Source: Promethearchaeota archaeon
GTDB lineage: Archaea > Asgardarchaeota > Lokiarchaeia > Sigynarchaeales > SOKP01
Reading direction: 5' to 3'
DNA: 38,351 bases
Assembly (NCBI GenBank): GCA_019057775.1
Contig: JAHLWT010000133.1
Location: 1 to 38,351 of the forward strand
The notes beneath the pieces were generated by a model, which ran no database searches, had not been told where the DNA came from, and worked only from the letters and a program-made list of their open reading frames with translations. The position numbers and the translations under genes were made by a program. How positions within the stretch are numbered: position 1 is the stretch's first letter; each line of letters opens with the position of its first letter. Below are positions 6,435 through 24,274 of this stretch, one piece after another.

Positions 6435-7472
6435 TTAAAGATTTAACAGACTATGTCTGACAAATTTGAGAGGATCAGTCGCGCAACCTCCTGAATCTAA
6501 CCCACCTAATTGATTTATTATTTTTTCAGGAATTAGGTTGTCTTTTAACCAAAGATCTTTTAGATTTGTTAATGACTCCAACCCTTTAACTTGAATAATC
6601 CGATTTTGACCTAAATCTAATGTTTCTAATTTTGTGAGAGGTTCAAGACCTTTTATTTCACCGATATTGTTTTCAGAGAGGAATAAATTTTCTAGATTCG
6701 TCAGTGAATATAAGCCTTTAATCTGAGTGATGTTATTCTGTTTAAGGTTTAGGATTTTTAGATTTTTACACTCATCGAGTCCTCTAATTTTTGAAAGTTG
6801 ATTCGTATTAAGCCAAAGTGTCTCTAATTTATCCAGTGTCTCAAGCCCTTTTAGATCTTGAATTTTATTATTATTTAAGTAAAGACTTTTTAAATTTTTT
6901 AGATTACTTAAACTTTCTATACTTGTAATTTGATTACCAGCTAAATTTAATACTTCTAAGTTTGTAAGATTTTCAATATTCTTAATTTGTTGGATTTGGT
7001 TTCCTGCAATCCATAAAACTTCAAGATCCACCAAACTTTCTAGCCCTTTAATTTCGGTAATTACATTCCACGATAAATCCAACCTTTTAAGAGAAGTTAA
7101 ATTTTCAAAACCTTTCAAACTTGAGATCTGATTTCCTCTTAGGTATAATTCTTGTAAATTACTTAAATTATCTAATCCCTGTATCTCTGATATTTGATTA
7201 CTTATCAAATGAAGAATTTCGAGATTTACTAATTTATCTAATCCTTCTATTTTTAAAATATTATTGCTACCGAGATTAAGGATTTCTAATTCTGTCAGGT
7301 TTTCGAGTCCTTTAATTTCTGAAATTTCATTAGAACTTAATTCTAAATTTTTAAGGTCTTTAACATTCGATAGATTAATAATCTCATCGATAGATTTAAT
7401 TTCTAAAAGACCTAAATCAAGAAAACCTTTTTTTACTTCAAATTTGCTTCCCGCTACTTCTACAGATTTCAT
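6435..7472 (-). CDS. SDS22-like leucine-rich-repeat protein
   Basis: 345 residues, almost entirely twelve complete and one partial 22-residue LRRs (about residues 45-325) of the SDS22/internalin type, each with the pattern LxLxxNxIxxIKGLExLxxLxx. A short N-terminal segment (MKSVEVAGSKFEVKKG) precedes the repeats, and the chain ends in GGLDSGGCATDPLKF. There is no signal peptide or membrane segment, so it is predicted to be cytoplasmic and to act as a protein-binding horseshoe. The ATG at 7472 is preceded by AGGTT. It is monocistronic; its partner is not evident from the neighbours. SDS22-type repeats are best known in the eukaryotic regulator of protein phosphatase 1; function here is unknown. 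Confidence 0.88.
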   Translation of the reverse strand: MKSVEVAGSKFEVKKGFLDLGLLEIKSIDEIINLSNVKDLKNLELSSNEISEIKGLENLTELEILNLGSNNILKIEGLDKLVNLEILHLISNQISEIQGLDNLSNLQELYLRGNQISSLKGFENLTSLKRLDLSWNVITEIKGLESLVDLEVLWIAGNQIQQIKNIENLTNLEVLNLAGNQITSIESLSNLKNLKSLYLNNNKIQDLKGLETLDKLETLWLNTNQLSKIRGLDECKNLKILNLKQNNITQIKGLYSLTNLENLFLSENNIGEIKGLEPLTKLETLDLGQNRIIQVKGLESLTNLKDLWLKDNLIPEKIINQLGGLDSGGCATDPLKFVRHSLLNL

Positions 7473-8034: not shown

Positions 8035-10254
8035 TTATTTCAATCTAATCTTCTTTCGCCTTACAATTATTATTAATAAGGCTACAGTTATTCCTGTTAT
8101 TAGTAAAAAATTGTTTCCGAAAGGAATTCCGCCTCCACCACCAGAAGGTAAATCTTTATTAATTGTTACTGTAAGACTATTGATATTTCCAGCAGTATCG
8201 TTAACATAAAATCTGAGTACTATGTCCCCTTCTGCTAAAGCTTCCCATACAACTTGACTTAAAGGAATTAGATTCGTTCCATTTATAACCGAGAAGTAAT
8301 GTTTTGTAGCATCAGTGCCAATCGTAAACCAACTCATGTTAAGACTTAAGTCATATATTGTAAGGTTAAATGTCGGAGCATCAACGCCAAATACAGTTCC
8401 CGCCAGAGGATAATTTAAGACAATTGAAGGGGGATCTAAATCTCCATCAGGAGGCAAATCTTTATTAATCGTCACCGTAAGATTATTGGTATTTCCAGTA
8501 GTATCGTTAACATAAAAGTTTATTATTATATCTCCTTCTGTTAATGCTTCCCAAGCGGTTTGATTTAAAGGAATTATATTCATTCCATTTATAACCGAGA
8601 AGAAGTATTTCCTTGTATCAGAGTCAAATGTATACCATGCCATATGCAAATTTACATCTAAGATTGTCAAATTGAATGATGGTGCATCCAATCCAAATAC
8701 GCTGTCTTCAAGAGGAGAATTTAAAATAATTATCGGCGAGAGACTTTTGTACACAGTAACACTAAGGTTGTTTTCATTACCAGCTGTATCATTTACATAA
8801 AAAATTAAATCAATTGCACCTTGTGATTCTGCATCCCAACCACTTTGATTAATTAGAATTATATTTATTCCATTTATAACCGAGAAGAAGTATTTCGTTA
8901 TATTAGTGCCAATCGTATACCAACTCATGTTAAGACTTAAATCGTATATTGTAAGATTAAATGTTGGAGCATCAACGCCAAATATTGCTCCCTCCAAGGG
9001 ATAATTTAAGATGATTGAAGGTGGATCAGTATCTTCCTCAGAAGGTAATTGCTTATTAATTGTTAGATTATTATTTTTAACATTACCCTCAGTATCATTA
9101 ACAAAGAATCTTATTATGATGTCTCCTTCTGGTAATCCATTCCAGATAAAGGGATTCATTAGAATTATATTAATTCCATTGATAACTGAGAATGAGTTTT
9201 TTGTTGCATTGTCTTCAACCGTATACCATCCTAAATTAAGATTTATATCGAAAATTGTCAAATTAAATGTAGGAGCAACACTCCCGAAAATTGTGCCCTC
9301 TGAAGGAGAATTAATTGTTAAAATTGGGGCAGTATCATCTCCATCTTCCCATATTGGGTAGTTATCTTGACTTCCACTTTCGCCATCAATTAAATAAGGA
9401 GTATCACCAATACCATTATCATCTAAATCATCAAAAGGGTAATCATCCCAATAATTACCTAATGTTCCTAGACTCCATTCAGTATTTGTACCATTATCAT
9501 ATGCATTTATTCCCAAGGGATTATCAAAAGTATTATTAAATAGAAGAGTGGCATTACATGTATTCATTGAGATTTCATGTAGGTAAACTCCATATACATT
9601 ATTATTTTCTATTATGTTATTATAGACTTTGTTTTTATTTGCTACACCAGCCATCCTTATTCCATAATTATTGTAGTTTAATGTATTACCAATAATTTCA
9701 CAATTTTCAATGCTACCGGAAAATTTTATCCCTGACCCATAGTCTGGGTTTCCTAAATATGTACTATTATTGAATGTGTTATTTATAATAGTATTATTAT
9801 TGCTTTGGGAAGAAAGTAATAAATTATAATATCTATTTCTTATACCAGTATTTCCTTGAATCAAATTTAATTTACTATAAGAGAGGATTATTCCTTGTCC
9901 ATTGTTATCTACTATTGTATTTTCTAAAATAGTATTATTATTGCTGTCATCAAGGTGTATTCCTACATAATTATCTGTAAGATTATTTCCGATTATAGTG
10001 CCATTAGCAACATTATCAAGTTGAATCCCTGCATCACCACCAGAAGGAGCATTGGTCAATTCACAATTTTTAATCATGAAATACGCAATAGAATTTTGTA
10101 TGTAAATGCCTGAATCAGTGTTTTTGGCATCAATTGTTAGATCCGCTATAACATATGGATTTGTTATCGTTCCACGACCATCACACCAGAGTCGGGTAGA
10201 TGCCCAAGTCCAGTTTACCCAAGGAGCAGTTGATACTCCATCTCCATCGATCAT
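8035..10254 (-). CDS. Surface protein, 3' part: second beta-helix module, four Ig-like repeats, membrane anchor
   Basis: 739 residues from an internal ATG. Residues 1-300 form a NosD/CASH-type right-handed beta-helix (many NxTIxxNxI turns) ending in GNYWDDYPFDDLDDNGIGDTPY and DNYPIW. Four Ig-like repeats of about 95-102 residues follow, each with FGxxAPTFNLTIxDxxL, an FSVINGxNII strand and FYVNDTxGN. A Gly-rich linker, one hydrophobic helix and RRKKIRLK end the chain, the layout of an archaeal surface protein anchored by its C-terminus. It has no signal peptide of its own. The same frame is open upstream to 10434, and its codons there (EWNNTYVGNSWDN...) continue the product of the preceding fragment, so this is the 3' part of one larger gene split by a frameshift near 10420-10430. 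Confidence 0.8.
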   Translation of the reverse strand: MIDGDGVSTAPWVNWTWASTRLWCDGRGTITNPYVIADLTIDAKNTDSGIYIQNSIAYFMIKNCELTNAPSGGDAGIQLDNVANGTIIGNNLTDNYVGIHLDDSNNNTILENTIVDNNGQGIILSYSKLNLIQGNTGIRNRYYNLLLSSQSNNNTIINNTFNNSTYLGNPDYGSGIKFSGSIENCEIIGNTLNYNNYGIRMAGVANKNKVYNNIIENNNVYGVYLHEISMNTCNATLLFNNTFDNPLGINAYDNGTNTEWSLGTLGNYWDDYPFDDLDDNGIGDTPYLIDGESGSQDNYPIWEDGDDTAPILTINSPSEGTIFGSVAPTFNLTIFDINLNLGWYTVEDNATKNSFSVINGINIILMNPFIWNGLPEGDIIIRFFVNDTEGNVKNNNLTINKQLPSEEDTDPPSIILNYPLEGAIFGVDAPTFNLTIYDLSLNMSWYTIGTNITKYFFSVINGINIILINQSGWDAESQGAIDLIFYVNDTAGNENNLSVTVYKSLSPIIILNSPLEDSVFGLDAPSFNLTILDVNLHMAWYTFDSDTRKYFFSVINGMNIIPLNQTAWEALTEGDIIINFYVNDTTGNTNNLTVTINKDLPPDGDLDPPSIVLNYPLAGTVFGVDAPTFNLTIYDLSLNMSWFTIGTDATKHYFSVINGTNLIPLSQVVWEALAEGDIVLRFYVNDTAGNINSLTVTINKDLPSGGGGGIPFGNNFLLITGITVALLIIIVRRKKIRLK
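8150..9340 (-). repeat. Four tandem coding repeats (Ig-like units)
   Basis: Four DNA repeats of about 285-306 bp, seen from the recurring string near CCATTTATAACCGAG at 8279, 8585 and 8870 and a diverged copy at 9176. Units around 8340-8420 and 8935-9015 are clearly the closest pair although they are not adjacent, which suggests recombination or gene conversion between alternate units. Confidence 0.7.
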
Positions 10255-10397
10255 GATAGGAGTTCCATTGTAAAATAGAGACCCATATATTGGATAATTA
10301 TCAATGCTTCCAGCAGAACCCTGAATATATGTATAAGGGTTATCGTCAATACCATCTCGATTAGCATCTACAGTGGAATGGTTATCCCAAGAATTTC

Positions 10398-11195
10398 CTA
10401 CATATGTATTATTCCATTCATTATTATTCCATTATCTAATGCATGCAACGTGTTTCCAATGAATGTGTTTTTGTAGAGTTGATTACTATCGCTACTTGTA
10501 TATGAATCATCTAAAAATATACCTCGAGTCCCACTATTAGTAATGTTATTTTTCAGAATTTGATTTAAATCGCTGGAATAAAAGTAAATTCCATTTTCTC
10601 CATTATTAGATGCGTGATTTTTGGTGATAGTGTTATTCTGGCTTAAAGCAAGATAAATTCCACTATAGAAGTTCTCAAACACTTCGTTTTCAGTGATTAA
10701 ATTGTTATTACTATCATATAAATCAATTCCCATACCATTTGGGTTATTATCATTCAAATTTGCTACATTTCCCTGAATGATGGAATTGTCACTTTGATAA
10801 AGTTTTATTCCACTATAATTATTCTCAGAAGCATTATTTTTAATAATTAGATTATAATCAGCATTTGAGAGGGAAACACCACTCATACTATTATTAATGA
10901 TGGAATTGTCCGTAAGTGTATTATAATCAGAATATGAGATAATAATACCATCCTCATCATTATTAGAGATATTATTTTTAGTAATAACATTGCGATAAGG
11001 ACCATTATGCAATTGAATACCATCAGCATTATTGTTATAAATTGTATTACCAGAGATCAAATTGTCATTACTGGAGCCTAAAAGATGAATTGCATGTCCG
11101 TTGCTTTGCGATATAAAATTTCCCTCAATCTGGTTAAAATCACTTCCAGAAAGCAATATCCCTACATCTGAAGAATATCCTATTTTCCCCGACAT
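10398..11195 (-). CDS. Surface protein, middle part: beta-helix repeats
   Basis: 265 residues made up of parallel beta-helix turns such as SNGHAIHLLGSSNDNLISGN and NNTITKNHASNNGENGIYFY (NosD/CASH family). It is in the same frame as the fragment at 11217-11783 and is separated from it by a single TAA (11217-11219) and seven further sense codons (LLNNTIL) that continue the repeat pattern, so the ATG at 11195 is almost certainly internal. At its 3' end the sense frame is lost at GGAATAATAATGAATGG (10420-10430): this frame runs into a TAG, while the frame of the 3' part takes over. It is not a separate gene in any meaningful sense. Confidence 0.7.
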   Translation of the reverse strand: MSGKIGYSSDVGILLSGSDFNQIEGNFISQSNGHAIHLLGSSNDNLISGNTIYNNNADGIQLHNGPYRNVITKNNISNNDEDGIIISYSDYNTLTDNSIINNSMSGVSLSNADYNLIIKNNASENNYSGIKLYQSDNSIIQGNVANLNDNNPNGMGIDLYDSNNNLITENEVFENFYSGIYLALSQNNTITKNHASNNGENGIYFYSSDLNQILKNNITNSGTRGIFLDDSYTSSDSNQLYKNTFIGNTLHALDNGIIMNGIIHM

Positions 11196-11216
11196 TAGTA
11201 TTGTATTATTTAAAAG

Positions 11217-11783
11217 TTAATTACCATTTGAATTTGCAATAAGAAGTCCGGCATCTCCGCTCCAATAGAAATTATTTTCTGTAATAGTATTATTATCACA
11301 ATATTTCATATACAGGTGATAAGCATTATTATACTCCATTGTATTGTTTGAAATGAAACCATTATTAGTGTTTGTTAATTTTAATCCTGCGTCGTAACCT
11401 GGCCACTCATCGCCACCAGATATCCTAAAAGTAGAGTTTCTTATTATGAAAAATACGTTGGAGTTTATGATTTCAAGAGCAGAATCTGTGATTTGAGCAT
11501 CAAAAGTGACATTCTCTATTATATAGGGATCGTTCCAGGTTCCGGAACCACTACACCACCCATAATTAATCGTGGTATTTGCCCAATTAAGAGTTGGATT
11601 TGACTCATCAATTATAGTATTCCCATTGACCGTCCAGAATCCTGATCTTTTCGGTGTTTTCTCCTCCTCAATTTTAGTGGTAATTTCTCGTGAATTTTCG
11701 CTATATATTAGTGAAAAGAAAGGAACAATAAAGATACATAAAATTAAGGCAATTGTTTTGATTCTATTACTAGTTTTTAACAT
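11217..11783 (-). CDS. Surface protein, 5' part: signal peptide and start of first beta-helix
   Basis: 188 residues from the ATG at 11783. An N-terminal signal peptide is clear (basic MLKTSNRIK, hydrophobic TIALILCIFIVPFFSLIYS). The mature part starts the first beta-helix module with WTVNGNTIID, WCSGSGTWNDPYIIENVTFDAQ and the first turns (NNGFISNNTM). The second module of the same protein (from 10254) starts in the same way (WCDGRGT, NPYVIADLTIDA), so the intact protein carried two tandem copies of this domain. The chain ends at a TAA (11217-11219) inside the repeat region. Read across that stop and across the frameshift near 10425, the gene would encode about 1,249 residues. NosD-type helices are also found in sugar-degrading and adhesion proteins; the ligand is unknown. 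Confidence 0.78.
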   Translation of the reverse strand: MLKTSNRIKTIALILCIFIVPFFSLIYSENSREITTKIEEEKTPKRSGFWTVNGNTIIDESNPTLNWANTTINYGWCSGSGTWNDPYIIENVTFDAQITDSALEIINSNVFFIIRNSTFRISGGDEWPGYDAGLKLTNTNNGFISNNTMEYNNAYHLYMKYCDNNTITENNFYWSGDAGLLIANSNGN

Positions 11784-13387: not shown

Positions 13388-14332
13388 TTATATATTAAAC
13401 CCGTCATCAAAATCGTCATATTCAGATTCGAGATCAAATCGTTTCTTTTCTTCTCCTTTCTTTTCTCTCTTAAGTTCTCTGCGTTCTTTAAGGGTTAACT
13501 CGTCGTGTCTTTTAATATAAACTTCCTCATATTTTTCTCTTAACTCTTCTACATCTTCTACTTGACCTAACTTATCCTCTAAGCCATCCTCAAAAAAGTA
13601 ATTTTTCTTGAATTTTTTTGCGGGAATACCGACGTAGATATAACCGGGGGCTAAAACTTGTTTAACTGTTGTTACTGAATTTGCTGCTAAAATACAATTT
13701 TTTCCAATATAAGTGCCTGGCATGACAATCGCATGAGACCCTATTCTCACATCATCCTCAATTATAGTTTTTCTAATAATCAGCAGATTTCCAACAATAA
13801 CAGCTGATTGAACTATAGCACCTTGACCTACAACTACATTCTTTCCAAAATCTATGAACTCTGTGTCAACCCAACCTTCAAATAATGAATTTGAAAACTT
13901 AGTCTTTACACCAAACACTTTGAAGCAGATATTATCTAAAAATGGGAAAGGAAATTTATGGGCAAGCCATATTGGCCATCTCTTTATCGTGCTTCGAAGA
14001 CTCCAATAACGGTAATCCTTATCGGAGGCATGTCTGAGAAATACTCCTTCTCGAGGTTTGTGTATGGCATTTACAATAACCAATAAAATTTTAGCAAAAA
14101 ATATAGAGAATAATACAATTGAGACGTACATTAGGAAAAATAAGAGAGGAAGGTAAGTATAGAAATGAACTGGCCTACTATAGCTCCAAAACAACCGCCA
14201 GTAAATCCAAAATTCCAACAATATTGGGATTATACTGATCCAAATTAGAAAAAAATAAAAAATTATATATCTCTTTTTCACTAAAACACCGGGTACAAAT
14301 GGGCCAACTTTCATCGAATTTGGGACCGACAT
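13388..14332 (-). CDS. Type C membrane hexapeptide (LbH) protein, second cluster
   Basis: 314 residues: two membrane segments (about 24-47 and 60-92), the amphipathic IHKPREGVFLRH motif, then a left-handed beta-helix of hexapeptide repeats (about 150-240: VGQGAIVQSAVIVGN, IIEDDVRIGSHAIVMPGTYIG, VGIPAKKFKK) and a charged tail with KERRELKREKK and an acidic end. A possible catalytic His is in GSHAIVMPGT. The fold is that of acyltransferases; the membrane-plus-LbH unit is like each of the three in the NRPS terminal domain (TIGR02353) seen in Pls. The ATG at 14332 has GAGGA upstream. It lies 52 nt after the A-B fusion gene in the same operon. The paralogue at 21611-22459 lacks the KERRELKREKK tail. 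Substrate unknown. Confidence 0.8.
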   Translation of the reverse strand: MSVPNSMKVGPFVPGVLVKKRYIIFYFFLIWISIIPILLEFWIYWRLFWSYSRPVHFYTYLPLLFFLMYVSIVLFSIFFAKILLVIVNAIHKPREGVFLRHASDKDYRYWSLRSTIKRWPIWLAHKFPFPFLDNICFKVFGVKTKFSNSLFEGWVDTEFIDFGKNVVVGQGAIVQSAVIVGNLLIIRKTIIEDDVRIGSHAIVMPGTYIGKNCILAANSVTTVKQVLAPGYIYVGIPAKKFKKNYFFEDGLEDKLGQVEDVEELREKYEEVYIKRHDELTLKERRELKREKKGEEKKRFDLESEYDDFDDGFNI

Positions 14333-14384
14333 TTTTTATTTCCTCGCTTATTTATTCTTTATTCTATATTTTACAATAAATTTA

Positions 14385-16244
14385 TTATTTTCTTTTATTA
14401 ATATTTTCTGGTTTGACTAACTCTTTTTTATCCTCATCAATATTGACTTCGTAGGTTATCGTGAACTTTTTCTCTTCATCTACATCTCGCTTGATTATAA
14501 GATCCCTTCTTTCTTCGGCATATTTGTTTTCCTTTAATTTTATCGCAGGGAATCCAAAGTAAACCCACCCGGGTTCTAAAACTTGATTAACTGTGGTAGA
14601 TGAAAGTGCTCCAATCACCGCCTCTTTACCAATAATCGTACCTGGGGCTATTGTTGTATGACCTCCGATCATTGTGTAATCTTCAAAAACAACGTTCCTT
14701 ATTATCAAATATTTGCCAACAACCATTGAGGACATGATGGTTGCACCTTGACCAACTAAAACTTTACGGCCAAATTTAATAAAATCAGCATCACACCACG
14801 TATCATTCAAATGGCTTGAATAATCCATAGTAACCCCATAATTTTTGAATGCAAATGCATCAATCCAAGGTAAGGGGCTATTTCGAACAAGCCACAACAC
14901 CAGTTTTTTTAGCTCAGTTCGCATCATCCAAAATTCGAAGTCAGTATTACGATTCCCACGAGTGATTTCTGCTATAAAAACTCCCTCTTTTGGTTTATGA
15001 ATTAAGTTTATTAAAATTAGAAACAGTTTAGTAAACAAGAAGCATCCTAAAATAAAAATATGTATCATTGCAAATAGAGCTATGGGTAAGAATAGAAGGA
15101 TCGCAATCCAGCCAGGATCACTCGTAATCCAATACCAGAAGATTGACACTAAGAGTCCACTTAACCAATAAATAGGGATATAGATAATAAGAAACTTAAC
15201 GTTAATTTTACTAATAGCACTACTCGTTGTAAAATCAATCTTTAAATCTTCTTCACTATAATCATCTAAAACAGGAAGTTCCAGATTGAGCTTTTCAGGA
15301 GGGCTAATTTTTTCAAGAGGTTTCCTTGATTGAGTTATTTTTTCTTTAACTATAAAATCGTTTAGATTTAAATTTCTTTCTAAATCGCTTGCGCCTATTT
15401 TTAGATAATCCATTATTTTGCGTTTAAATATTTTTCTCATGGGAACACCAAAATAGAAGTGATTATCCCCTTTAATTACGCTGTGTTTGACTACTGAAGC
15501 TAAGGGAAGCAGAAAAGCATTATCATATATTTCAGATCCTGGACCAATTTGACACATAGCAGCAGCCGTGACATTATTTCCTACTTTTATTTCAAAATAT
15601 GAAATATTTCCAAATATTCCTTGAAGTAAATGGCTAGCTAGGGTAGTATTCACGCCAATGTAACAATTAGTACCTACATCAATGAATTTGTCGTTCATAA
15701 CTGATTCTTCTATTACTGTTCCCTTTCCAATTTTGCTAGCTCCCACGAAATTAAAGAACCACTTTGATATAAAAGGAAATGGCCCCTTTAAGAATGAATT
15801 TCTCCCGTATTTAATCATGAAGCTTCTAATATGATAATAATTCGCTGTTCTACTCCTAATGTTACGGGGAATAATTCCTGATTTGGAAGGTGATTGATTT
15901 TCTGTAAATTGCCAAAATACTTTGGTGATTAATCCAACTAAGAATAGATGGAGTAAATAACATCCAAAAATAACCAATGGCATTATTAAGAGAGAAGAGA
16001 GAGAGGTGATATCGGTAAAGCTCGATAATAAATTAGCGCTTTCTAAGAAAAATATTCTAAAAGGGAAAAAGAAATAGCACCAGAAGATTATTGTTGGTAA
16101 TAACCATGATCCATAATATATGACAATAAATATAATAAAGTATAAGTGATATTGGAGATTTACATCTTCTCTTAGAGTATCATCGTCAAAATTATCAGAA
16201 TTCGGTGGCTCAATTTCTTCAGCTACTTCACTCATAATACCCAA
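14385..16244 (-). CDS. A-B fusion membrane hexapeptide (LbH) protein, copy 1
   Basis: 619 residues with two similar halves. Half A: membrane helices about 33-60 and 78-110, the motif SPSKSGIIPRNI, then a beta-helix (KIGKGTVIEESV, NCYIGVNTTLASH, EIKVGNNVTAAA, FGVPMRKIFKRK). Half B: DFTTSSAISKINVKF, helices about 351-376 and 381-412, IHKPKEGVF, then a second beta-helix (VLVGQGATIMSSMVVGKYLIIRN split over two turns, IGGHTTIAPGT, FGFPAIKLK). The C-terminal tail NKYAEERR...EVNIDEDKKEL is shared by all B parts in this window. Conserved His residues (ASH in A; GGHT in B) could be catalytic. The start is TTG 16244 or ATG 16235. It is an acyltransferase-type fold in the membrane; related to the Pls terminal region. 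Confidence 0.8.
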   Translation of the reverse strand: MGIMSEVAEEIEPPNSDNFDDDTLREDVNLQYHLYFIIFIVIYYGSWLLPTIIFWCYFFFPFRIFFLESANLLSSFTDITSLSSLLIMPLVIFGCYLLHLFLVGLITKVFWQFTENQSPSKSGIIPRNIRSRTANYYHIRSFMIKYGRNSFLKGPFPFISKWFFNFVGASKIGKGTVIEESVMNDKFIDVGTNCYIGVNTTLASHLLQGIFGNISYFEIKVGNNVTAAAMCQIGPGSEIYDNAFLLPLASVVKHSVIKGDNHFYFGVPMRKIFKRKIMDYLKIGASDLERNLNLNDFIVKEKITQSRKPLEKISPPEKLNLELPVLDDYSEEDLKIDFTTSSAISKINVKFLIIYIPIYWLSGLLVSIFWYWITSDPGWIAILLFLPIALFAMIHIFILGCFLFTKLFLILINLIHKPKEGVFIAEITRGNRNTDFEFWMMRTELKKLVLWLVRNSPLPWIDAFAFKNYGVTMDYSSHLNDTWCDADFIKFGRKVLVGQGATIMSSMVVGKYLIIRNVVFEDYTMIGGHTTIAPGTIIGKEAVIGALSSTTVNQVLEPGWVYFGFPAIKLKENKYAEERRDLIIKRDVDEEKKFTITYEVNIDEDKKELVKPENINKRK

Positions 16245-16350
16245 TTTTTTAAACTTTTACTCCATTAAAAGATAATTGATATTAATTATACTTTTATAGT
16301 TATTTTTTATCTTTTAAAGTTATGACTTATTAAATGAAGGAAAATTAACC

Positions 16351-16758
16351 GTGAAAAATAAGTGTAAAGATTGTGGAAAATGCTGCGAACAAACAGAAAT
16401 GATCCTTTCAGAGGCAGACATTACTCTTATTTTAAACCATGCTTCACTCAACTTAAGAAGAGAAGATTTCATCGAAATAAATAATGATGGTTTTTTTCAG
16501 TTAAAAAATGTTAAGGGATTTTGTGTCTTTTTCGAACCTAGTACTAAGCTATGTAGAATTTATAAACTTAGACCTCAAGGTTGTAAATTCTATCCTTTAA
16601 TCTATGATTTTAGTATTAATAAATGCGTGTTAGATGTTGTAGATTGCCCTCGACCCAATCTATTTTATGAAACAAGTCGAAAAGCTAAAAAAACATGCTT
16701 AAAAATAAAGAGATTTTTGATAGAGGTATTTAAGAGAAGTATTGGAAAAAACGATTAA
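16351..16758 (+). CDS. YkgJ-family cysteine-cluster protein
   Basis: 135 residues from GTG 16351, with GAAGG about 10 nt upstream. The N-terminal CKDCGKCC cluster (C5, C8, C11, C12) with further Cys in GFCVFF, KLCRIYKLRPQGCKFYP and DCPRP is the pattern of the YkgJ/CxxCxxCC family (zinc- or iron-chelating; some are linked to Fe-S cluster or flagellin methylation functions). The role here is unknown. It is the only plus-strand gene inside the minus-strand hexapeptide region and lies between the two A-B fusions with its own TATA-like TTTTATAG at 16290-16297, so it is probably transcribed alone. Confidence 0.82.
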   Translation: MKNKCKDCGKCCEQTEMILSEADITLILNHASLNLRREDFIEINNDGFFQLKNVKGFCVFFEPSTKLCRIYKLRPQGCKFYPLIYDFSINKCVLDVVDCPRPNLFYETSRKAKKTCLKIKRFLIEVFKRSIGKND

Positions 16759-16792
16759 ATTTGAATGTTAACTATTCTTAATTTAATAAAAT

Positions 16793-18613
16793 TTAAGCTA
16801 AATCTTTCTTATCTTCATCGATATTGACTTCAGATTCAACTTCAAACCTTTTCTCTCCTGCAATGTCTTTTTTCAGAATTACATTACGTCGTTCTTCTGC
16901 GTATTTATTGGGTTTAAATTTTCGGGCTGGTATTCCAAAATAGACCCATCCCGGTTCAAGTATTTGATTATACACTGTATTGGAGATGGCACCAATGAAA
17001 GTATCCTCACCGAAAATGGTTCCTGGAGCGATTGTGGATTGGCCACCTACAAGGGAATAATCACCAAAAATCACTTTTTTTATAATTAAATATTTTCCAA
17101 CTACCATTGAAGACATTACATTAGCACCTTGACCGATTAGTGTTCTGTGTCCAAAATCTATAAACTCGCCGTCACACCATGCATCAAATAGTGATACAGA
17201 GAATGATAACTTGATACCAAACCATTTAAATGCTAATATATCCATCCAAGGAATTGGCCAATTACGTATGAGCCATAAAACAATTTTTTTCAGTTCTGTT
17301 CGTAAACACCAAAATTCGAAGTCTGGATCACCGATTTCAGCTTTAAATATACCTTCTCTGGGTTTATGAATTAAGTTTATTAGAATTAAAAACAGTTTAC
17401 AGAAAAAAAAACAAGCCACTATGAATATAAACCACATGAGAATTATCATAGTTGGTATGAAGAAGGCCATTAGAAACCAATTACTAATAAAATGTTCATA
17501 AGTATAAAATATTATCGTAATTAGCATTCCCGCGAGCCAAAATATCGGGATATAGACTGCTAAAAACTTTATATTGATTCTTGAGATCGCACTACTCGTA
17601 GTAAAATCAAGAGCATATTTTTTTTCTTCTGGAATGCTTTCATCTTCCTCATCTTCTATTCCTGAAATTTTGGTATTATCCTTTTTGGAATCAATTATTC
17701 TTAACGGTCCAGAGACTTGATTTTCATGAATTAAATCTTTATTGATCGCCATTTCATTCTCGTTTAAATCTAAAAATTGCATTGTCTTCTTTTTAAAGAT
17801 TTTCCTGGCGGGAATTCCCCAATAATAGTTTTTACCTTTTAAAACACTATGTTTTGGAAGCGCAGATAGCGGTAATAAATAAGAATTATCCTGTATTTCT
17901 GTACCAGGAGCTATGGAATTAGCACATGATGTCGTTGCATTATTTCCCAATTTTATTTCAAAATAATTAATATTTCCAAATATTCCATCAACTAAATGAC
18001 TCGTAACGGTAGAATTCACGCCAATATACACATTTTTACCGATGTTGAGATGTTTATCATTACACACCGATTCTTCTATTACAGTTCCTTTTCCGATTTT
18101 ACTTGATCCTACAAAATTATAAAACCATTTTGAAAAGAATGGAAAAATTCCTTTCATATACGTATTCTTTCCATATTTGATCAAGAAGCTACGAAGATGA
18201 TAATAATTTAATGTATCGCTTCTAATATTCCGTGGGATTATGCCATCTTTTGTAGGGGATCTTTTTTCTGTCATATTCCAAAAGCCCCGAGTTATTAATG
18301 CGATAAAAAAAAGTCGGATTAAATAACATAATATTATAATAATGGGCATAAAAATTAGAGCCAGTAATGAGTTAATTTCAGTAAAAATTGAAAAAAAGTT
18401 TGCGACATCTAAGAAGTTTGGAATAAAATATAGATAAATATATAACAGAAACAGGAAGGCTGGAATCATTAGAGAAGCCAGATAAGTTGTAAAAAATACA
18501 ACCAAATAGAAAAAATATTGAAACTTGATTTCTTCTGTAATAACATTGTTATTCTGATTATCTCCAATCGCGTTCTGTTCTGTGTTTGTTATATCTTTAC
18601 TAATGAAAAACAC
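16793..18613 (-). CDS. A-B fusion membrane hexapeptide (LbH) protein, copy 2
   Basis: 606 residues with the same A and B halves as the gene at 14385-16244: four membrane helices, SPTKDGIIPRNI, beta-helix A (GKGTVIEESVCNDKH, GVNSTVTSHLVDGIFGN), linker of about 65 residues, DFTTSSAISRINIKF, beta-helix B, and the NKYAEERR tail with EVNIDEDKKDL. In beta-helix B the site that is GGH in copy 1 reads GGQS, so the possible catalytic His is missing in this B half while the A half keeps SH. The start is taken as GTG 18613. It lies 110 nt after the alcohol dehydrogenase gene on the same strand and may be read from the same transcript. Function unknown. Confidence 0.8.
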   Translation of the reverse strand: MFFISKDITNTEQNAIGDNQNNNVITEEIKFQYFFYLVVFFTTYLASLMIPAFLFLLYIYLYFIPNFLDVANFFSIFTEINSLLALIFMPIIIILCYLIRLFFIALITRGFWNMTEKRSPTKDGIIPRNIRSDTLNYYHLRSFLIKYGKNTYMKGIFPFFSKWFYNFVGSSKIGKGTVIEESVCNDKHLNIGKNVYIGVNSTVTSHLVDGIFGNINYFEIKLGNNATTSCANSIAPGTEIQDNSYLLPLSALPKHSVLKGKNYYWGIPARKIFKKKTMQFLDLNENEMAINKDLIHENQVSGPLRIIDSKKDNTKISGIEDEEDESIPEEKKYALDFTTSSAISRINIKFLAVYIPIFWLAGMLITIIFYTYEHFISNWFLMAFFIPTMIILMWFIFIVACFFFCKLFLILINLIHKPREGIFKAEIGDPDFEFWCLRTELKKIVLWLIRNWPIPWMDILAFKWFGIKLSFSVSLFDAWCDGEFIDFGHRTLIGQGANVMSSMVVGKYLIIKKVIFGDYSLVGGQSTIAPGTIFGEDTFIGAISNTVYNQILEPGWVYFGIPARKFKPNKYAEERRNVILKKDIAGEKRFEVESEVNIDEDKKDLA

Positions 18614-18723
18614 ATTCTAATGATTTTTAAACTCTATTTTATAAATTAAGCTTTCTTTCCTAATAAATTCTCTATTACAAATTATAGAGAGAAAAATTGA
18701 GAAGCCTTAAAAACCTTACAGTT

Positions 18724-19731
18724 CTAGATTTGAATGATAGATTTAATGTGTTCATTATCTTCCTCATAGGCATTAAAAGCATTCTTGAGATCATCCAAAC
18801 CAAATTTCTTGGAAATTAAATCTCCTACATTTATATTATCTGACATTAAACCTTCAATTGCTTTTTTGAATGGTCCACATCTGCTACTATATATTGTTAA
18901 TTCTCTTACTACAATATCGGTTAAATCTAATGGGGCTGCACGTCCATGAGTACTTTTTATATGAACTTTTCCAAGAGCCTTACAAGATGATATTACGTCA
19001 TTAATTGCATTAGGATTGCCAGTTGCATCAACAACTATATCTGCCCCTAATCCATTTGTAATATCCTTAATTTCTTCAGGGATATTTGGACTATCTAATC
19101 TATTTATTTGATAATTTGATCCATAATTTTTAGCCAAATTGAGTTTTTTAGTAGATCCATCTATTACAATTACTTTTAACCCTTTTGATATTGCTATTTG
19201 AGTTATTAATAAACCCAATTTACCTAAACCAAAAATCGCTATTACCTTGTCGTTTTGATTCAATGGCATTGTCTCAAATGTCTGGTACGCTGCCGCAAGT
19301 GGTTCAATAAACGTTGCTTCCTCATACGATAAGGAACTAGGAATATTATGCAATAAATAGGAATCAAGAGCGATATATTCTGCTAGAGCACCATTAATAT
19401 CAATACCTATTGCCTTTCGATATATGCATTGCGTAAATAGCTCTTTTTTACAATAATAACAATCAAAATCTATATTACTATTTATTTCGGAAGTAACCCT
19501 TTTATTTAACCAAGCAGGATCAACCTCTTTTCCTACTTTGATAACCTCACCACTTAATTCATGACCAAGTATAATTGGAGTGGGGGTTGGTAAGAAACCA
19601 TTTATAATTGCTAAATCTGTTCCACAGATTCCTACTGCTTTTACTCGAACTAATGCTTGTGAATCCTTAATTACTGGAACAGGAACATTTTGAATCGAGA
19701 TCTGCTTCCCATCAAAGACTGCGGCTTTCAT
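18724..19731 (-). CDS. Zinc-dependent medium-chain alcohol dehydrogenase
   Basis: 335 residues, MDR superfamily, sorbitol/threonine-dehydrogenase-like. Catalytic zinc ligands C36 (GICGTD) and H57/E58 (GHELSG) are present, as is the NAD(P) loop FGLGKLG. The structural zinc lobe has DCYYCKKELFTQC: three Cys, with Asp where the first Cys is usual, so this site may hold zinc differently. An acidic IDG follows the glycine loop, which favours NAD. The ATG at 19731 has AGGGA close upstream and lies 13 nt after the nitrilase-family gene, so these are co-transcribed. The alcohol substrate cannot be told; a hydroxy amino acid or a polyol is plausible in this context. Confidence 0.85.
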   Translation of the reverse strand: MKAAVFDGKQISIQNVPVPVIKDSQALVRVKAVGICGTDLAIINGFLPTPTPIILGHELSGEVIKVGKEVDPAWLNKRVTSEINSNIDFDCYYCKKELFTQCIYRKAIGIDINGALAEYIALDSYLLHNIPSSLSYEEATFIEPLAAAYQTFETMPLNQNDKVIAIFGLGKLGLLITQIAISKGLKVIVIDGSTKKLNLAKNYGSNYQINRLDSPNIPEEIKDITNGLGADIVVDATGNPNAINDVISSCKALGKVHIKSTHGRAAPLDLTDIVVRELTIYSSRCGPFKKAIEGLMSDNINVGDLISKKFGLDDLKNAFNAYEEDNEHIKSIIQI

Positions 19732-19744
19732 TTCCCTAACTTTC

Positions 19745-20542
19745 TTATTTCTCTTTATCTATTATATAAAATTTAGTTCTTCTATCATTGAAGATATCAT
19801 TAAAATCGTTAAGTTTTTTATTTCTTGCTTTTTCAATATCGATATCTACAAATCCAAATGAAATTTCATCTTTTGGGGCTGATGAAAGAACTTCTCCATC
19901 ATAAGATGTAATCTGGCTTGCACCTGTAAATTTAAAATTGTCTTCACCCCTTTTTTCTTTTCCTATCCTATTGGCGGTTATGGCATATACTCGATTTTCT
20001 AAACATCGTGTAACCATTGCTCTTTGGCAATAGGGAAGAACTAAATTTGCGGGATGAGCGATGATATCTGCTCCCAGAAGGGAAAGGGTTCGAGCTGTTT
20101 CGGGGAAAATCCAATCAAAGCAGATCATTATTCCTATATTGATACCATTCACGTTATAAACTTCTAAACCCTTATTTCCCGGAGAAAACCAGAGTTTTTC
20201 TTTAAAATATAGATGAATCTTTCTATAAGTTCCAATTACTTTATGTTTCAGAACTATAATTGAAGAATTGTAAACTTCTGATCCTTCTTTTTCAATAAAT
20301 CCACCAATAACAATTGCTCCTGTTTTCAGAGAGATTTTTTGCAGAAACTTAGCAGTCTCTCCACTTTGATTTTCAGCTAATTCTTGTACTTCTTCCTTAG
20401 ATACAAAAGTATAGCCAGTAGCGAATAATTCTGGTAAAACAATTATATCCGCTTTAATATCATTAATTAAATCATCTATTTGTTGAAAATTTCGTTCTTT
20501 TTCTCCAAATGTGGGATGAGTTTGAATATATCCAACCTTCAT
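19745..20542 (-). CDS. Nitrilase-superfamily C-N hydrolase
   Basis: 265 residues with the full catalytic triad of the nitrilase superfamily: E38 (LPELFATGY), K108 (YRKIHLY) and C141 (MICFDWIFPE). The length and the HPANLVLPYC segment fit the amidase/carbamoylase branches (omega-amidase, N-carbamoylputrescine amidase-like) and not true nitrilases. It cleaves a C-N bond in a small amide, releasing ammonia; the substrate is unknown. It lies between the PLP dehydratase (18 nt) and the alcohol dehydrogenase (13 nt) in one operon. Confidence 0.86.
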   Translation of the reverse strand: MKVGYIQTHPTFGEKERNFQQIDDLINDIKADIIVLPELFATGYTFVSKEEVQELAENQSGETAKFLQKISLKTGAIVIGGFIEKEGSEVYNSSIIVLKHKVIGTYRKIHLYFKEKLWFSPGNKGLEVYNVNGINIGIMICFDWIFPETARTLSLLGADIIAHPANLVLPYCQRAMVTRCLENRVYAITANRIGKEKRGEDNFKFTGASQITSYDGEVLSSAPKDEISFGFVDIDIEKARNKKLNDFNDIFNDRRTKFYIIDKEK

Positions 20543-20560
20543 TTCTTCAAATCTACTCGT

Positions 20561-21532
20561 TTATTTTATTTTTTTCTCAATTAACTTAAAAAAATCGGTC
20601 ATATCAATATTTCCACCACTAATTATAACACCAACTTTACGATTTTCTACAGGAATTTTCTTGGAGAACACTCCTGCTAAAGAGCAGGCTCCTGAGGGCT
20701 CCACGACTAGTTTCATTCGCTCCCATATGAATCGCATGGCATTCAAAATCTCCTCTTCAGATACTGTTATAATTTCCTCAACGTTATTCTTTATAATGTC
20801 AAATGTTTTCTTGCTTAAGCTTGTCAATAATCCATCAGCAATGGAATTTGGTTCTATATTGGTTTCTATTTTACCAGATTTTAGTGAACGATATGCGTCG
20901 TCGACATTTTCGGGTTCAACACCATATACTTTAATATTTGAACTAAAACCTTTTGCAGCAATTGCCGTTCCACTTAGCAAACCACCACCACCTACAGGAG
21001 CAAAAATCATGTCTATATCATTTATTTCAGTCACCAACTCATAAGCTGCAGTTCCAGCTCCAAGAATTACATTATCATTATCGTAAGGATGGATCAAAGT
21101 ATAACCATATTTATCTATTAATTTTTGAGTTGTTTTATGTCGAGCTTCAAGTGAATTTTCACACATGACAACAATAGCACCATACGTTTGTTTAGTGGCA
21201 TTTATCTTAACTTGCTGTGAAGTTTCGGGCATGACTATTGTTGCTTTAATTCCTAATAATTTCGCAGAAAGAGCTACTGCTTGTGCATGATTTCCACTTG
21301 AATGTGCGATAACTCCTTTACTCTTTTGTTCCTCTGAGAGTAATGATATTGCGTTATAAGCACCACGCATTTTAAATGCTCCAACTCTTTGAAAATTTTC
21401 GCATTTAAGATAAATTTCGGCCTTTAACAAATTATTAAGGGTTCTGGAAGTCATAATTGGAGTTTTATTTATTATTCCCCTAATACGTTCGTAGGCTAAT
21501 TTAACATCATTATATTCTACCATAATAGTCAC
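20561..21532 (-). CDS. Threonine dehydratase / serine racemase-type PLP enzyme
   Basis: 323 residues, fold type II PLP enzyme. The lysine that binds PLP is K54 (GAFKMRGA), the substrate loop is SSGNHAQ (78-84) and the phosphate-binding loop is GGGGLLSG. There is no ACT regulatory domain, so it is the short catabolic threonine/serine dehydratase or serine-racemase type, which turns Thr or Ser into the keto acid and ammonia or gives D-Ser. The start is GTG 21532 with GGAATAAC upstream, or ATG 21523. It is the first of three tightly packed metabolic genes that lie between the two hexapeptide clusters, 78 nt after the type-C gene. Confidence 0.87.
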   Translation of the reverse strand: MTIMVEYNDVKLAYERIRGIINKTPIMTSRTLNNLLKAEIYLKCENFQRVGAFKMRGAYNAISLLSEEQKSKGVIAHSSGNHAQAVALSAKLLGIKATIVMPETSQQVKINATKQTYGAIVVMCENSLEARHKTTQKLIDKYGYTLIHPYDNDNVILGAGTAAYELVTEINDIDMIFAPVGGGGLLSGTAIAAKGFSSNIKVYGVEPENVDDAYRSLKSGKIETNIEPNSIADGLLTSLSKKTFDIIKNNVEEIITVSEEEILNAMRFIWERMKLVVEPSGACSLAGVFSKKIPVENRKVGVIISGGNIDMTDFFKLIEKKIK

Positions 21533-21610
21533 GTTATTCCATGAAGGTATTTCTCATCCTTAAAAATCTTCTTTTTGATTATAATAAATTGCATGGAAGC
21601 GAATTATATT

Positions 21611-22459
21611 TTATTCGTTGTCAGTATGTTTATCTACTCTCATTGTATATAATTCTTCAAATTTTTCTCGTGATTCTATTTCCTTTTCTAATTGTTTTTC
21701 AATTATATCTTCTAATCCCTCTTCAAAAAATACGTTCTTTTTGAACTTTTTTGCCGGTGCACCCAGGTAAACCCAATTTTCTTCAATTTCTTGCCCTACA
21801 GTAGTCAAAGAATGCCCTCCTAAAATAGAATTCTTTTTCATATGTGTTCCGGGCATGAGAACACTATGAATACCAATTACTACATTATCTTCAATAATTG
21901 TTTTTCTTATAATAAAAAGGTTTCCGACTATTACTGCTGATTGAACAATAGCGCCTTGCCCTATAACGATATTTTTTCCAAATTCAATAAATTCTGTATC
22001 AACCCACCCTTCAAAAAGAGAATTTGAATATTTAGTTTTTACACCAAACATTTTAAAGCATATATTATCCATAAACGGAAAAGGAAACTTATGAGATATC
22101 CAAATTGGCCATTTCTTTATCGTGCTTCTTAAGCTCCAATATCTATAATCCTTATCTGAAGAATGTCTAAGAAATACACCCTCTCTCGGCTTATGGAAAA
22201 TATTGACAATAATTAAGAAGATTTTAGCGAAAATTAAAGAAATAATTATTGAAGTTAGGTACATTATAAGAATTAACGGAGGTAAAAAAAATAGGAAATG
22301 GATAAATCTTGGTTCATAAAGTTTCCAAAAGAACCAAAATTCAAATTGAATTGAGAATATACTAATCCATATCAAAAACACATAAAATATCAAATATCTC
22401 TTTTTTACTAAAGTAAGAGTAGTATTTGGCCCGACATTTAAACTTGCTGGTACTGACAT
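21611..22459 (-). CDS. Type C membrane hexapeptide (LbH) protein, first cluster
   Basis: 282 residues, clearly a paralogue of 13388-14332 (shared MSVP start, KKRYLIFYVFLIWIS, DKDYRYWSLRSTIKKWPIW, FPFMDNICFKMFGVKTKYSNS, VGQGAIVQSAVIVGN). Two membrane helices precede the beta-helix; the possible catalytic His lies in GIHSVLMPGT. The tail is short (EKFEELYTMRVDKHTDNE) and lacks the KERRELKREKK extension of its paralogue. The ATG has AGAGGA 7 nt upstream and lies 5 nt after the stop of the type-B gene, so A, B and C are one translation-coupled operon. Confidence 0.8.
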   Translation of the reverse strand: MSVPASLNVGPNTTLTLVKKRYLIFYVFLIWISIFSIQFEFWFFWKLYEPRFIHFLFFLPPLILIMYLTSIIISLIFAKIFLIIVNIFHKPREGVFLRHSSDKDYRYWSLRSTIKKWPIWISHKFPFPFMDNICFKMFGVKTKYSNSLFEGWVDTEFIEFGKNIVIGQGAIVQSAVIVGNLFIIRKTIIEDNVVIGIHSVLMPGTHMKKNSILGGHSLTTVGQEIEENWVYLGAPAKKFKKNVFFEEGLEDIIEKQLEKEIESREKFEELYTMRVDKHTDNE

Positions 22460-22464
22460 GATTC

Positions 22465-23355
22465 TTAATCCTCTGAATTGTTGTTTAGAAGTTCCTTTTT
22501 ATCTTCATCAATATTAACTTCTTGTTTAACTTCAAATTTTACTTCTTCATCTACATCTTTTCTAATAATTACATCCCTTCGTTGTTCTGCATATTTATTA
22601 GGTTTTAGTTTCCTTGCGAATTGAGGGCCAAAATATATCCAACCTGGTTCAATATATTGATTTGGAACTGTTGTAGTAAAGGCACCAATGACAGATTCTT
22701 TACCCAATTTAGTACCGGGAGATATATGTGAAACCCCTCCTACAAGGGTATGGTCTCCTAATACAACCTTTTTTATTATTAGATATTTTCCTATGACCAT
22801 TGAACTCATTACTACAGCTCCCTGCCCAACGGTAACATTTCTTCCAAATTCTATAAATTCTCCATCTATCCATGAATCGTGCATATGACTAGAGAAATCT
22901 ACATTAATACCCATCCATTTAAATCCCCACATAACCACCCAAGGAATTGGCCCATTACTCATAAACCAAAATACGAGCTTTTTTAGTTCTACTCTTAATC
23001 GCCAAAATTCATAATCTTGATCACCTTCTTCAGCTCTGAAGACACCTTCTTTAGGTTTATGAATCATATTTATTATGAGAAGAAAAGCTCTTGTAAAAAT
23101 CGCTATGCCAAATAGAAAAACAAAATATAAAATGAATAACCATACAGGCATCAAAACCATATTTATATACCATGGAATATATCGTGATATATCGAAAAAT
23201 ACTGCTGCTGTTATGTATATAGAAATCCATAAGATTGGGATATATAAAGCAAGGAACTTATAGCCAATTCTACTTATTGCACTAGTTGTTACAAAATTAA
23301 TAGTATAATCTATTTTTTGAGCATGTATTCCTTTTTTTTCTATTATATCATTCAT
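22465..23355 (-). CDS. Type B membrane hexapeptide (LbH) protein, free-standing
   Basis: 296 residues equal to the second half of the A-B fusion proteins: NFVTTSAISRIGYKF, two membrane helices (about 25-50, 57-88), IHKPKEGVFRAE, beta-helix (FGRNVTVGQGAVVMSSMVIG, LGDHTLVGGVSHISPGT) and the tail NKYAEQRRDVIIRKD...EVNIDEDKKEL. The site that is GGHT in fusion copy 1 reads GGVSH here, so a His is present two residues later. The ATG at 23355 lies within the last codons of the type-A gene (8-nt overlap), which shows that the free A and B proteins are made together, as in the fusion. Confidence 0.8.
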   Translation of the reverse strand: MNDIIEKKGIHAQKIDYTINFVTTSAISRIGYKFLALYIPILWISIYITAAVFFDISRYIPWYINMVLMPVWLFILYFVFLFGIAIFTRAFLLIINMIHKPKEGVFRAEEGDQDYEFWRLRVELKKLVFWFMSNGPIPWVVMWGFKWMGINVDFSSHMHDSWIDGEFIEFGRNVTVGQGAVVMSSMVIGKYLIIKKVVLGDHTLVGGVSHISPGTKLGKESVIGAFTTTVPNQYIEPGWIYFGPQFARKLKPNKYAEQRRDVIIRKDVDEEVKFEVKQEVNIDEDKKELLNNNSED

Positions 23356-24274
23356 TTAACTTTGCCTCACTCGGCTTCTTTTTTGATTTTTTTGAAAGAT
23401 TTAATTTTTCATTAAGCCCTTCTGCTTTTTTCAAATCCTCATCTGTTATTTGTAGGTAATCCATCAATTTCCTCTTAAAAATTTTTCTTACAGGTGTACC
23501 AAAATAGTAATTATTTCCTTTCAAAATATTATATTTTGTTGCTCCCGTCACAGGCAACCACCAAGAATTATTACCCGTTTCTAGACCAGGACCAAAACAA
23601 TTGTATCCCGCAGATGTAAAATTATTACCAATTTTTATTTTTGCTATAGAAACATTTCCGAAAATCCCTTCTACAGCATGTGAGACTATGCCAGGATTTG
23701 TTCCAATGTAACAATTTTCTCCAATTTCTATAAATCGATCACCAGCAACTTGTTCTTCTATAACCGTTCCTTTTCCTATTTTATTAGTCCGTGTAAAATT
23801 AAACATCCATTTTAATAACCAGGGAAATGGACCACGTGAAAAAGCATTTTTTGGATACTTTATCATGAAACTACGGATGTGATAATAATTTAATGTTTTG
23901 CTGGGAATATTTCTCGGAATAATGCCTGATTTCGAGGGTGATTTTTTCTCTGTAATTCCCCAAAACCAACGAGTAACTAATGCAACCAGAAAAAGGTGTA
24001 TTAAATAACAGATAATTATAACAAATGGCATGAGCATTGATGCCATTAATGAATTTACTTCTGTGAAAAGCGCAAAAAAATTTATCTCATTTAGAAAATT
24101 AGGAAGATAAAAATACATAATATACAGCATAAAAATACAAGCCGGGATCAAAAGAGAACTAAAATAAATCATGAAAAACAAAAGAAGATACCAATGTATC
24201 TGAATATTAATCTCTTCTTTAATAATCCCTGTTTTAGAGTTCTCTCCATTTTTCTCCAGAATTTTAGTTTCCAC
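23348..24274 (-). CDS. Type A membrane hexapeptide (LbH) protein, free-standing
   Basis: 308 residues equal to the first half of the A-B fusions: two long hydrophobic stretches (about 28-55 and 70-107), SPSKSGIIPRNI, YYHIRSFMIKY, a beta-helix (KIGKGTVIEEQVAGD, CYIGTNPGIVSHAVEGIFGN) and FGTPVRKIFKRKLM, then a short Lys/Glu tail. The SH in the GIVSH turn is kept in all three A domains and could be catalytic. It starts with GTG 24274, without a clear Shine-Dalgarno, and is the first gene of the A-B-C operon; a TATA box lies about 80 nt upstream. Confidence 0.8.
   Translation of the reverse strand: METKILEKNGENSKTGIIKEEINIQIHWYLLLFFMIYFSSLLIPACIFMLYIMYFYLPNFLNEINFFALFTEVNSLMASMLMPFVIIICYLIHLFLVALVTRWFWGITEKKSPSKSGIIPRNIPSKTLNYYHIRSFMIKYPKNAFSRGPFPWLLKWMFNFTRTNKIGKGTVIEEQVAGDRFIEIGENCYIGTNPGIVSHAVEGIFGNVSIAKIKIGNNFTSAGYNCFGPGLETGNNSWWLPVTGATKYNILKGNNYYFGTPVRKIFKRKLMDYLQITDEDLKKAEGLNEKLNLSKKSKKKPSEAKLNE

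Follow-up and report, generated by a model that had tools for sequence, protein, structure and literature searches.

Soluble acyltransferases of the left-handed beta-helix (LbH) fold are homotrimers in which a loop histidine (His) acts as the base and the active sites lie between adjacent beta-helices. A membrane-bound build is known from the C-terminal polymerisation region of the bacterial peptide synthetases Pls and PosA, which make poly-lysine and poly-ornithine. A 2023 paper (PMC10522769) models this region as three units with six membrane helices in approximate three-fold symmetry, each unit running from two membrane helices through a strand and two more helices to an LbH, and states that the domain is without structural information. 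Our sequence search of the PDB brought up no experimental structure of this domain. Here we describe a set of membrane LbH genes, named A, B and C, in a Promethearchaeota archaeon of the Lokiarchaeia (GCA_019057775.1, contig JAHLWT010000133.1, positions 1 to 38,351, forward strand; this 38,351-nucleotide stretch is called the window). An initial annotation had taken the set for a stand-alone relative of the Pls region, perhaps fed by a separate adenylation-carrier protein. The explanation that we favour, with somewhat better than even confidence, is that A, B and C form a membrane-embedded LbH acyltransferase heterotrimer with one active site and an acyl-coenzyme A (acyl-CoA) donor, which arose in Asgard archaea independently of Pls.

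Results

Eight membrane LbH units in six genes

Between positions 13388 and 24274, the minus strand of the window holds six open genes that encode eight units (3 A, 3 B and 2 C).

23348..24274, minus strand: lone A unit, 308 amino acids (aa); two membrane helices, linker and LbH; candidate catalytic His199, codon 23678-23680.
22465..23355, minus strand: lone B unit, 296 aa; serine at the position of A's histidine; 8-nucleotide (nt) overlap with A.
21611..22459, minus strand: C unit of the operon, 282 aa; alanine at the position of A's histidine; begins 5 nt after B.
16793..18613, minus strand: A-B fusion 2 (AB2), 606 aa; His206 in the A part, codon 17996-17998; no adjoining C.
14385..16244, minus strand: A-B fusion 1 (AB1), 619 aa from a TTG start; His205 in the A part, codon 15630-15632.
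13388..14332, minus strand: second C unit, 314 aa; pairs with fusion 1, 52 nt downstream of it.

The coordinates and spacings of the initial annotation, including the 8-nt overlap and the 5-nt gap, were borne out by the open frames, as was its layout of one operon with separate A, B and C genes and a second region with two A-B fusions and one C. Its unit type, a pair of membrane helices with an LbH, also stood; its count of seven had to be raised to eight units in six genes. Fusion 1 probably starts at the ATG three codons downstream of the TTG, since its database copy (P0001) has 616 aa. The Pfam hexapeptide profile PF00132 scored above its gathering cut-off in five of the six window proteins, and the lone A reached 13.6 bits, under the cut-off of 27.

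AlphaFold2 models of fusion 1 with its A and B parts (69 sequences, predicted local distance difference test (pLDDT) 70, predicted template modelling score 0.68) and of the C at 21611..22459 (61 sequences, pLDDT 77) gave the same order in each unit: a pair of long helices comes first, then a strand, two further helices and finally the LbH. Basic residues adjoining the hydrophobic stretches suggest that the LbH lies on the cytosolic side. Among the best 50 rows each from Foldseek and VIA-align, the top matches were LbH acyl- and acetyltransferases and gamma-class carbonic anhydrases, aligned on the LbH with the membrane part not covered. PDB sequence searches likewise gave LbH enzymes as best matches, together with weak unrelated ones, and did not cover the membrane part.

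Gene order is conserved among relatives

A search with a C profile was used to fetch 72 genome loci (from the best 80 of 151 relatives), which makes 73 loci with the window. By their titles, 71 of the 72 belong to Lokiarchaeota or Lokiarchaeia and one to Hodarchaeum. Since the profile recovers so many further loci, the gene set is not a product of chance. Without redundant copies, the 73 loci contain 282 unit genes (94 C, 73 A, 63 B, 51 AB and 1 ABB), and the synteny proposed for checking in other Asgard genomes does recur: 51 loci have the order A-B-C, and 30 have an AB fusion with C after it. L109, L110, L111 and L114, four loci retrieved because they have a frame of about 530-560 aa, carry instead a C-A fusion with B adjoining. 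AB plus C and CA plus B are rotations of one cyclic order, as would be expected if neighbours in a ring become fused. Across the phylum, a strong C (E value of 1e-100 or better) was found in 57 of 227 genomes; at E 0.001 the profile matched 186 of 227, many of them weakly and as generic LbH proteins. A search of the literature library found nothing on an Asgard hexapeptide acyltransferase system of this kind.

The loop histidine appears to be confined to A

Alignment placed an invariant histidine of the acyltransferase type in A (87 of 87 alignment rows), which we take to be the known catalytic histidine of LbH acyltransferases. Over the 73 loci, counted without redundancy, it was present in 124 of 124 readable A units (one of 125 was unreadable). 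None of the 112 readable B units had it (111 serine, 1 alanine; two of 114 unreadable), nor did any of the 94 C units (50 alanine, 40 serine, 4 others). Before copies common to overlapping loci were removed, the tallies were 135/135 for A, 0/120 for B and 0/94 for C. The conserved columns of fusion 1 include His205 and the nearly invariant His254 in A and His478 in B, and the conserved-column list of C contains no invariant histidine within the LbH. From these alignments, the catalytic-type loop histidine of hexapeptide acyltransferases appears to belong to the A units only. Because only A carries it, a set of A, B and C would have one active site, with B and C in structural or substrate-binding roles.

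A quick tree of 107 units, with Shimodaira-Hasegawa-like approximate likelihood-ratio supports, was built after 16 redundant main-set rows had been left out of 123, and included eight Pls sequences. It grouped all A units (support 99), B, C and the single partner described below (97), and all Pls units as one clade (98). A common clade of A and Pls unit 3 was rejected (p-AU, approximately unbiased test, 0.0057). Since the Pls units form a clade of their own and the grouping of A with unit 3 is rejected, the triplication in the Loki set and that in Pls seem to be of separate origin.

Simpler arrangements were found in other Asgard genomes. A His-bearing A stands with a single His-less partner in L112, L113, L158 and L159, and L152-L157 hold single, adjacent or fused units with the histidine in 10 of 10. 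One of these loci (L153, 6824-8380) contains a natural two-unit fusion of 518 aa in which both units have kept the histidine.

Profile similarity to the Pls/PosA region was detected in the LbH only

The Pls-like character claimed at the outset was upheld in part: helix and domain count, element order and one histidine in three units agree, and family membership, kinship of membrane and linker parts and a shared triplication are not supported. In Pls, unit 3 carries the histidine in 15 of 15 sequences, and a histidine within four columns of the position is found in 2 of 15 first units and 4 of 15 second units. These 15 come from 17 fetched loci, L083 having given no BLAST alignment and L084 having been left out.

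The profile TIGR02353 was the top NCBIfam match for three of the six window proteins (C1, AB2 and C2). The profile search proposed earlier as a check nevertheless did not place the set in that family: scores in five of the six proteins were 22.3-59.8 bits, far under the cut-off of 423.1, the lone A gave no match, and none of seven Loki genomes had a protein above the cut-off. At E 0.001 the profile also matched 13 of 14 control genomes, so the match is not specific. When units were split and compared with hhalign, the LbH halves of Loki and Pls units matched with probabilities of 94-98, and the membrane-linker halves gave less than 1 in nine of nine pairs, as unrelated membrane families do. 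Kinship over whole units, suggested by some pairs that align across 199-221 columns, is not supported, as no match remains after removal of the LbH.

On two plasmids (L095 and L097) we also noted coding sequences annotated as Pls/PosA, of 846 and about 911 aa, which are too short for adenylation plus an entire terminal domain.

Carrier domains were found in hardly any genome with a strong C

The carrier domain PF00550 was detected in none of the seven Loki genomes, and in 11 of 14 control genomes. It occurs in 57 of the 227 genomes of the phylum, but in only two (G104 and G149) of the 57 genomes that have a strong C; most of the Loki and strong-C genomes are draft metagenome assemblies. Phosphopantetheinyl transferase (PF01648) was likewise above cut-off in none of the seven, with one weak match, and positive in 10 of 14 controls. 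The separate adenylation-carrier feeder suggested in the initial annotation is thus not supported, and the Loki set is probably not carrier-fed. The donor is read as acyl-CoA because nearly all hosts are without a detected carrier. Adenylation-domain matches are many in these genomes; all among the matches listed fall below the TIGR01733 cut-off, as ordinary acyl-CoA synthetases would.

Two candidate partners were rejected. A divergently oriented 546-aa family with the motif CHTSGTT, which resembles that of adenylate-forming enzymes, is encoded close to the cluster in 19 of 73 loci (for example L007, 4604-6244). It had no useful match in Pfam, NCBIfam or the PDB, and hhalign against adenylation domains covered 15 columns with a probability of 5.7. 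AMP-binding genes of family 23 (9 genes in 8 loci) adjoin the set inconsistently.

Other Asgard genomes (G014-G047, G062-G068, G094 and G095) have many carrier domains in frames of about 3,300-3,800 aa, like polyketide or polyunsaturated-fatty-acid synthases, and have no strong C.

A hydrolase and a dehydrogenase adjoin the set

Four other genes lie within or between the two groups of units.

20561..21532, minus strand: pyridoxal-phosphate enzyme, threo-3-hydroxyaspartate ammonia-lyase-like (421 bits against a cut-off of 452); between C and the hydrolase.
19745..20542, minus strand: carbon-nitrogen hydrolase of the nitrilase superfamily (PF00795), next after the pyridoxal-phosphate enzyme; E-K-C triad kept.
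18724..19731, minus strand: zinc alcohol dehydrogenase family, threonine 3-dehydrogenase-like under the cut-off; family in 35 of 73 loci.
16351..16758, plus strand: CxxCxxCC (YkgJ-type) protein, divergent, between the two A-B fusions; family in 44 of 73 loci.

Among 90 non-redundant C genes that have a next gene (window excluded), that next gene is a hydrolase gene of the same strand in 29, at a spacing of -4 to 66 nt and of exactly 2 nt in 13 of the 29. The link is common, not universal. The dehydrogenase comes directly after the hydrolase in nine cases. All 27 longer copies of the hydrolase have the full triad, and all 34 longer copies of the dehydrogenase keep the C, H and E residues of the catalytic metal site. 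The two enzymes may point to an acceptor or product that contains nitrogen.

Elsewhere in the window, three adjacent open reading frames with right-handed beta-helix (NosD) domains (8035-11783) may be parts of larger surface proteins. A leucine-rich-repeat protein is encoded at 6435-7472; in 17 of 73 loci a member of its family is found close to the cluster, often adjoining an AlaX-type editing gene. Heliorhodopsin genes accompany the cluster in 12 of 73 loci (L002, L004, L007, L031 and others), where they often separate A-B-C from the dehydrogenase.

Discussion

We propose that A, B and C are paralogous subunits that probably interlock as one enzyme ring with a single active site, and that acyl transfer is its likely activity. 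Each ring is predicted to hold six membrane helices, two per subunit, and one beta-helix per subunit, probably in the cytosol. A's loop histidine would act as the base, and B and C would be structural or substrate-binding subunits. The acyl donor would be acyl-CoA and not a carrier protein, and the acceptor a hydroxyl or an amine on a lipid or on another molecule held in the membrane; the hydrolase and the zinc dehydrogenase would probably serve to form or remove a partner with an amide or amine group. Judged from the tree and the gene order, the set may have arisen in Asgard archaea from single His-bearing units by duplication and loss of the histidine, which would have turned a membrane acyltransferase homotrimer into a heterotrimer with a single active site; the fusions would have joined neighbours of the ring.

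Several observations weigh against this proposal. The ratio of units is not always 1:1:1, the window itself being one C short with its 3 A, 3 B and 2 C, and runs of two or three A units occur in some loci (12 A-A pairs). In far pairs of units, both partners carry the histidine in four of six (L146-L149) and one only in the others (L150 and L151). The fusion 1 model is of middling confidence, with its pLDDT of 70 and B beta-helix blocks at 49-74. As for the neighbourhood, 61 of the 90 C genes are followed by a gene other than the hydrolase, 39 of those on the opposite strand. The heterotrimer, finally, is argued from genetics and by analogy.

The unequal copy numbers would suit an operon that merely co-expresses related enzymes, each subunit forming its own homotrimer as is common among LbH enzymes. 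We regard this as rather improbable, however: homotrimers of B or C would be without any loop histidine, AB and CA fusions occur in different sets, and the gene order is tight and constant. The absence of the histidine from two of three subunits could also mean that A, B and C are a structural membrane scaffold with no catalysis. This is unlikely, given that the histidine is kept in every readable A across highly diverged sequences, and likewise in the lone relatives examined.

A membrane-bound carbonic anhydrase of the gamma class, an enzyme type that binds zinc through three histidines from two subunits, would account for the matches of C to that class in the Foldseek and PDB sequence searches and for the second nearly invariant histidine of A (His254 of fusion 1), but B and C have no histidine at the aligned loop, and we give this alternative hardly any credence. 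A stand-alone relative of the Pls polymerisation domain, making peptide bonds and fed by a separate adenylation-carrier protein, would agree with the helix and domain count, the element order, the one histidine per three units, the presence of TIGR02353 among the best family matches and the many adenylation-type enzymes, even if all those listed are under the TIGR01733 cut-off. We consider it very unlikely, since the carrier domain and its phosphopantetheinyl transferase were found as rarely as described above, the membrane and linker halves do not match and the clade of A with Pls unit 3 is rejected.

If the acyltransferase heterotrimer is the right explanation, the series found in Asgard genomes, from a lone His-bearing unit through A with one partner to A+B+C and its fusions, would make a clear case of an apparent change from homotrimer to heterotrimer, and the set would be a sign that the closest archaeal kin of eukaryotes have a membrane acylation pathway still to be characterised.

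Compared with known enzymes, the Loki set shares with the soluble LbH acyltransferases (maltose, galactoside and serine acetyltransferase, AntD and LpxD) the fold and, in A, the loop histidine; it differs in its membrane helices, two per unit, and in the absence of the histidine from two of three subunits. NF058585, heptaprenylglyceryl phosphate O-acetyltransferase, is the best NCBIfam match of fusion 1, at 70.6 bits and with the strongest stretch in the A part, and the second best of the lone A, and by its name acts on a lipid of archaeal type. Its cut-off of 300 was missed, however, and at 172 positions the family would be too short to contain both a pair of membrane helices and an LbH as in the Loki units. 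The gamma-carbonic anhydrase domain of plant mitochondrial complex I is a zinc enzyme within a respiratory complex, different in context and in chemistry.

The closest build is that of Pls/PosA, whose element order, helix count and domain count, as given in the published description, match our AlphaFold2 models of A, B and C, and which also has a single acyltransferase-type histidine among three units. Pls is one chain fused to adenylation and carrier domains, whereas the three Loki units are spread over two or three chains as separate genes or as A-B or C-A fusions. On the favoured explanation, the state of one histidine, three units and six helices would have been reached independently in the two systems, so that any Pls-like working of the Loki set would at most be a matter of convergence. 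It is a bolder and rather doubtful idea that the carrier-free six-helix Asgard ring generates acylated or amide-linked compounds at the membrane and delivers them into it or to its other side, having become, by stepwise loss of the histidine in two of three subunits, an independent mechanical equivalent of a free-standing Pls polymerisation domain. For the polymerisation mechanism of Pls/PosA, the Loki set offers a comparison: a naturally split system of Pls-like build, without a carrier, in which the role of each unit can be tested gene by gene.
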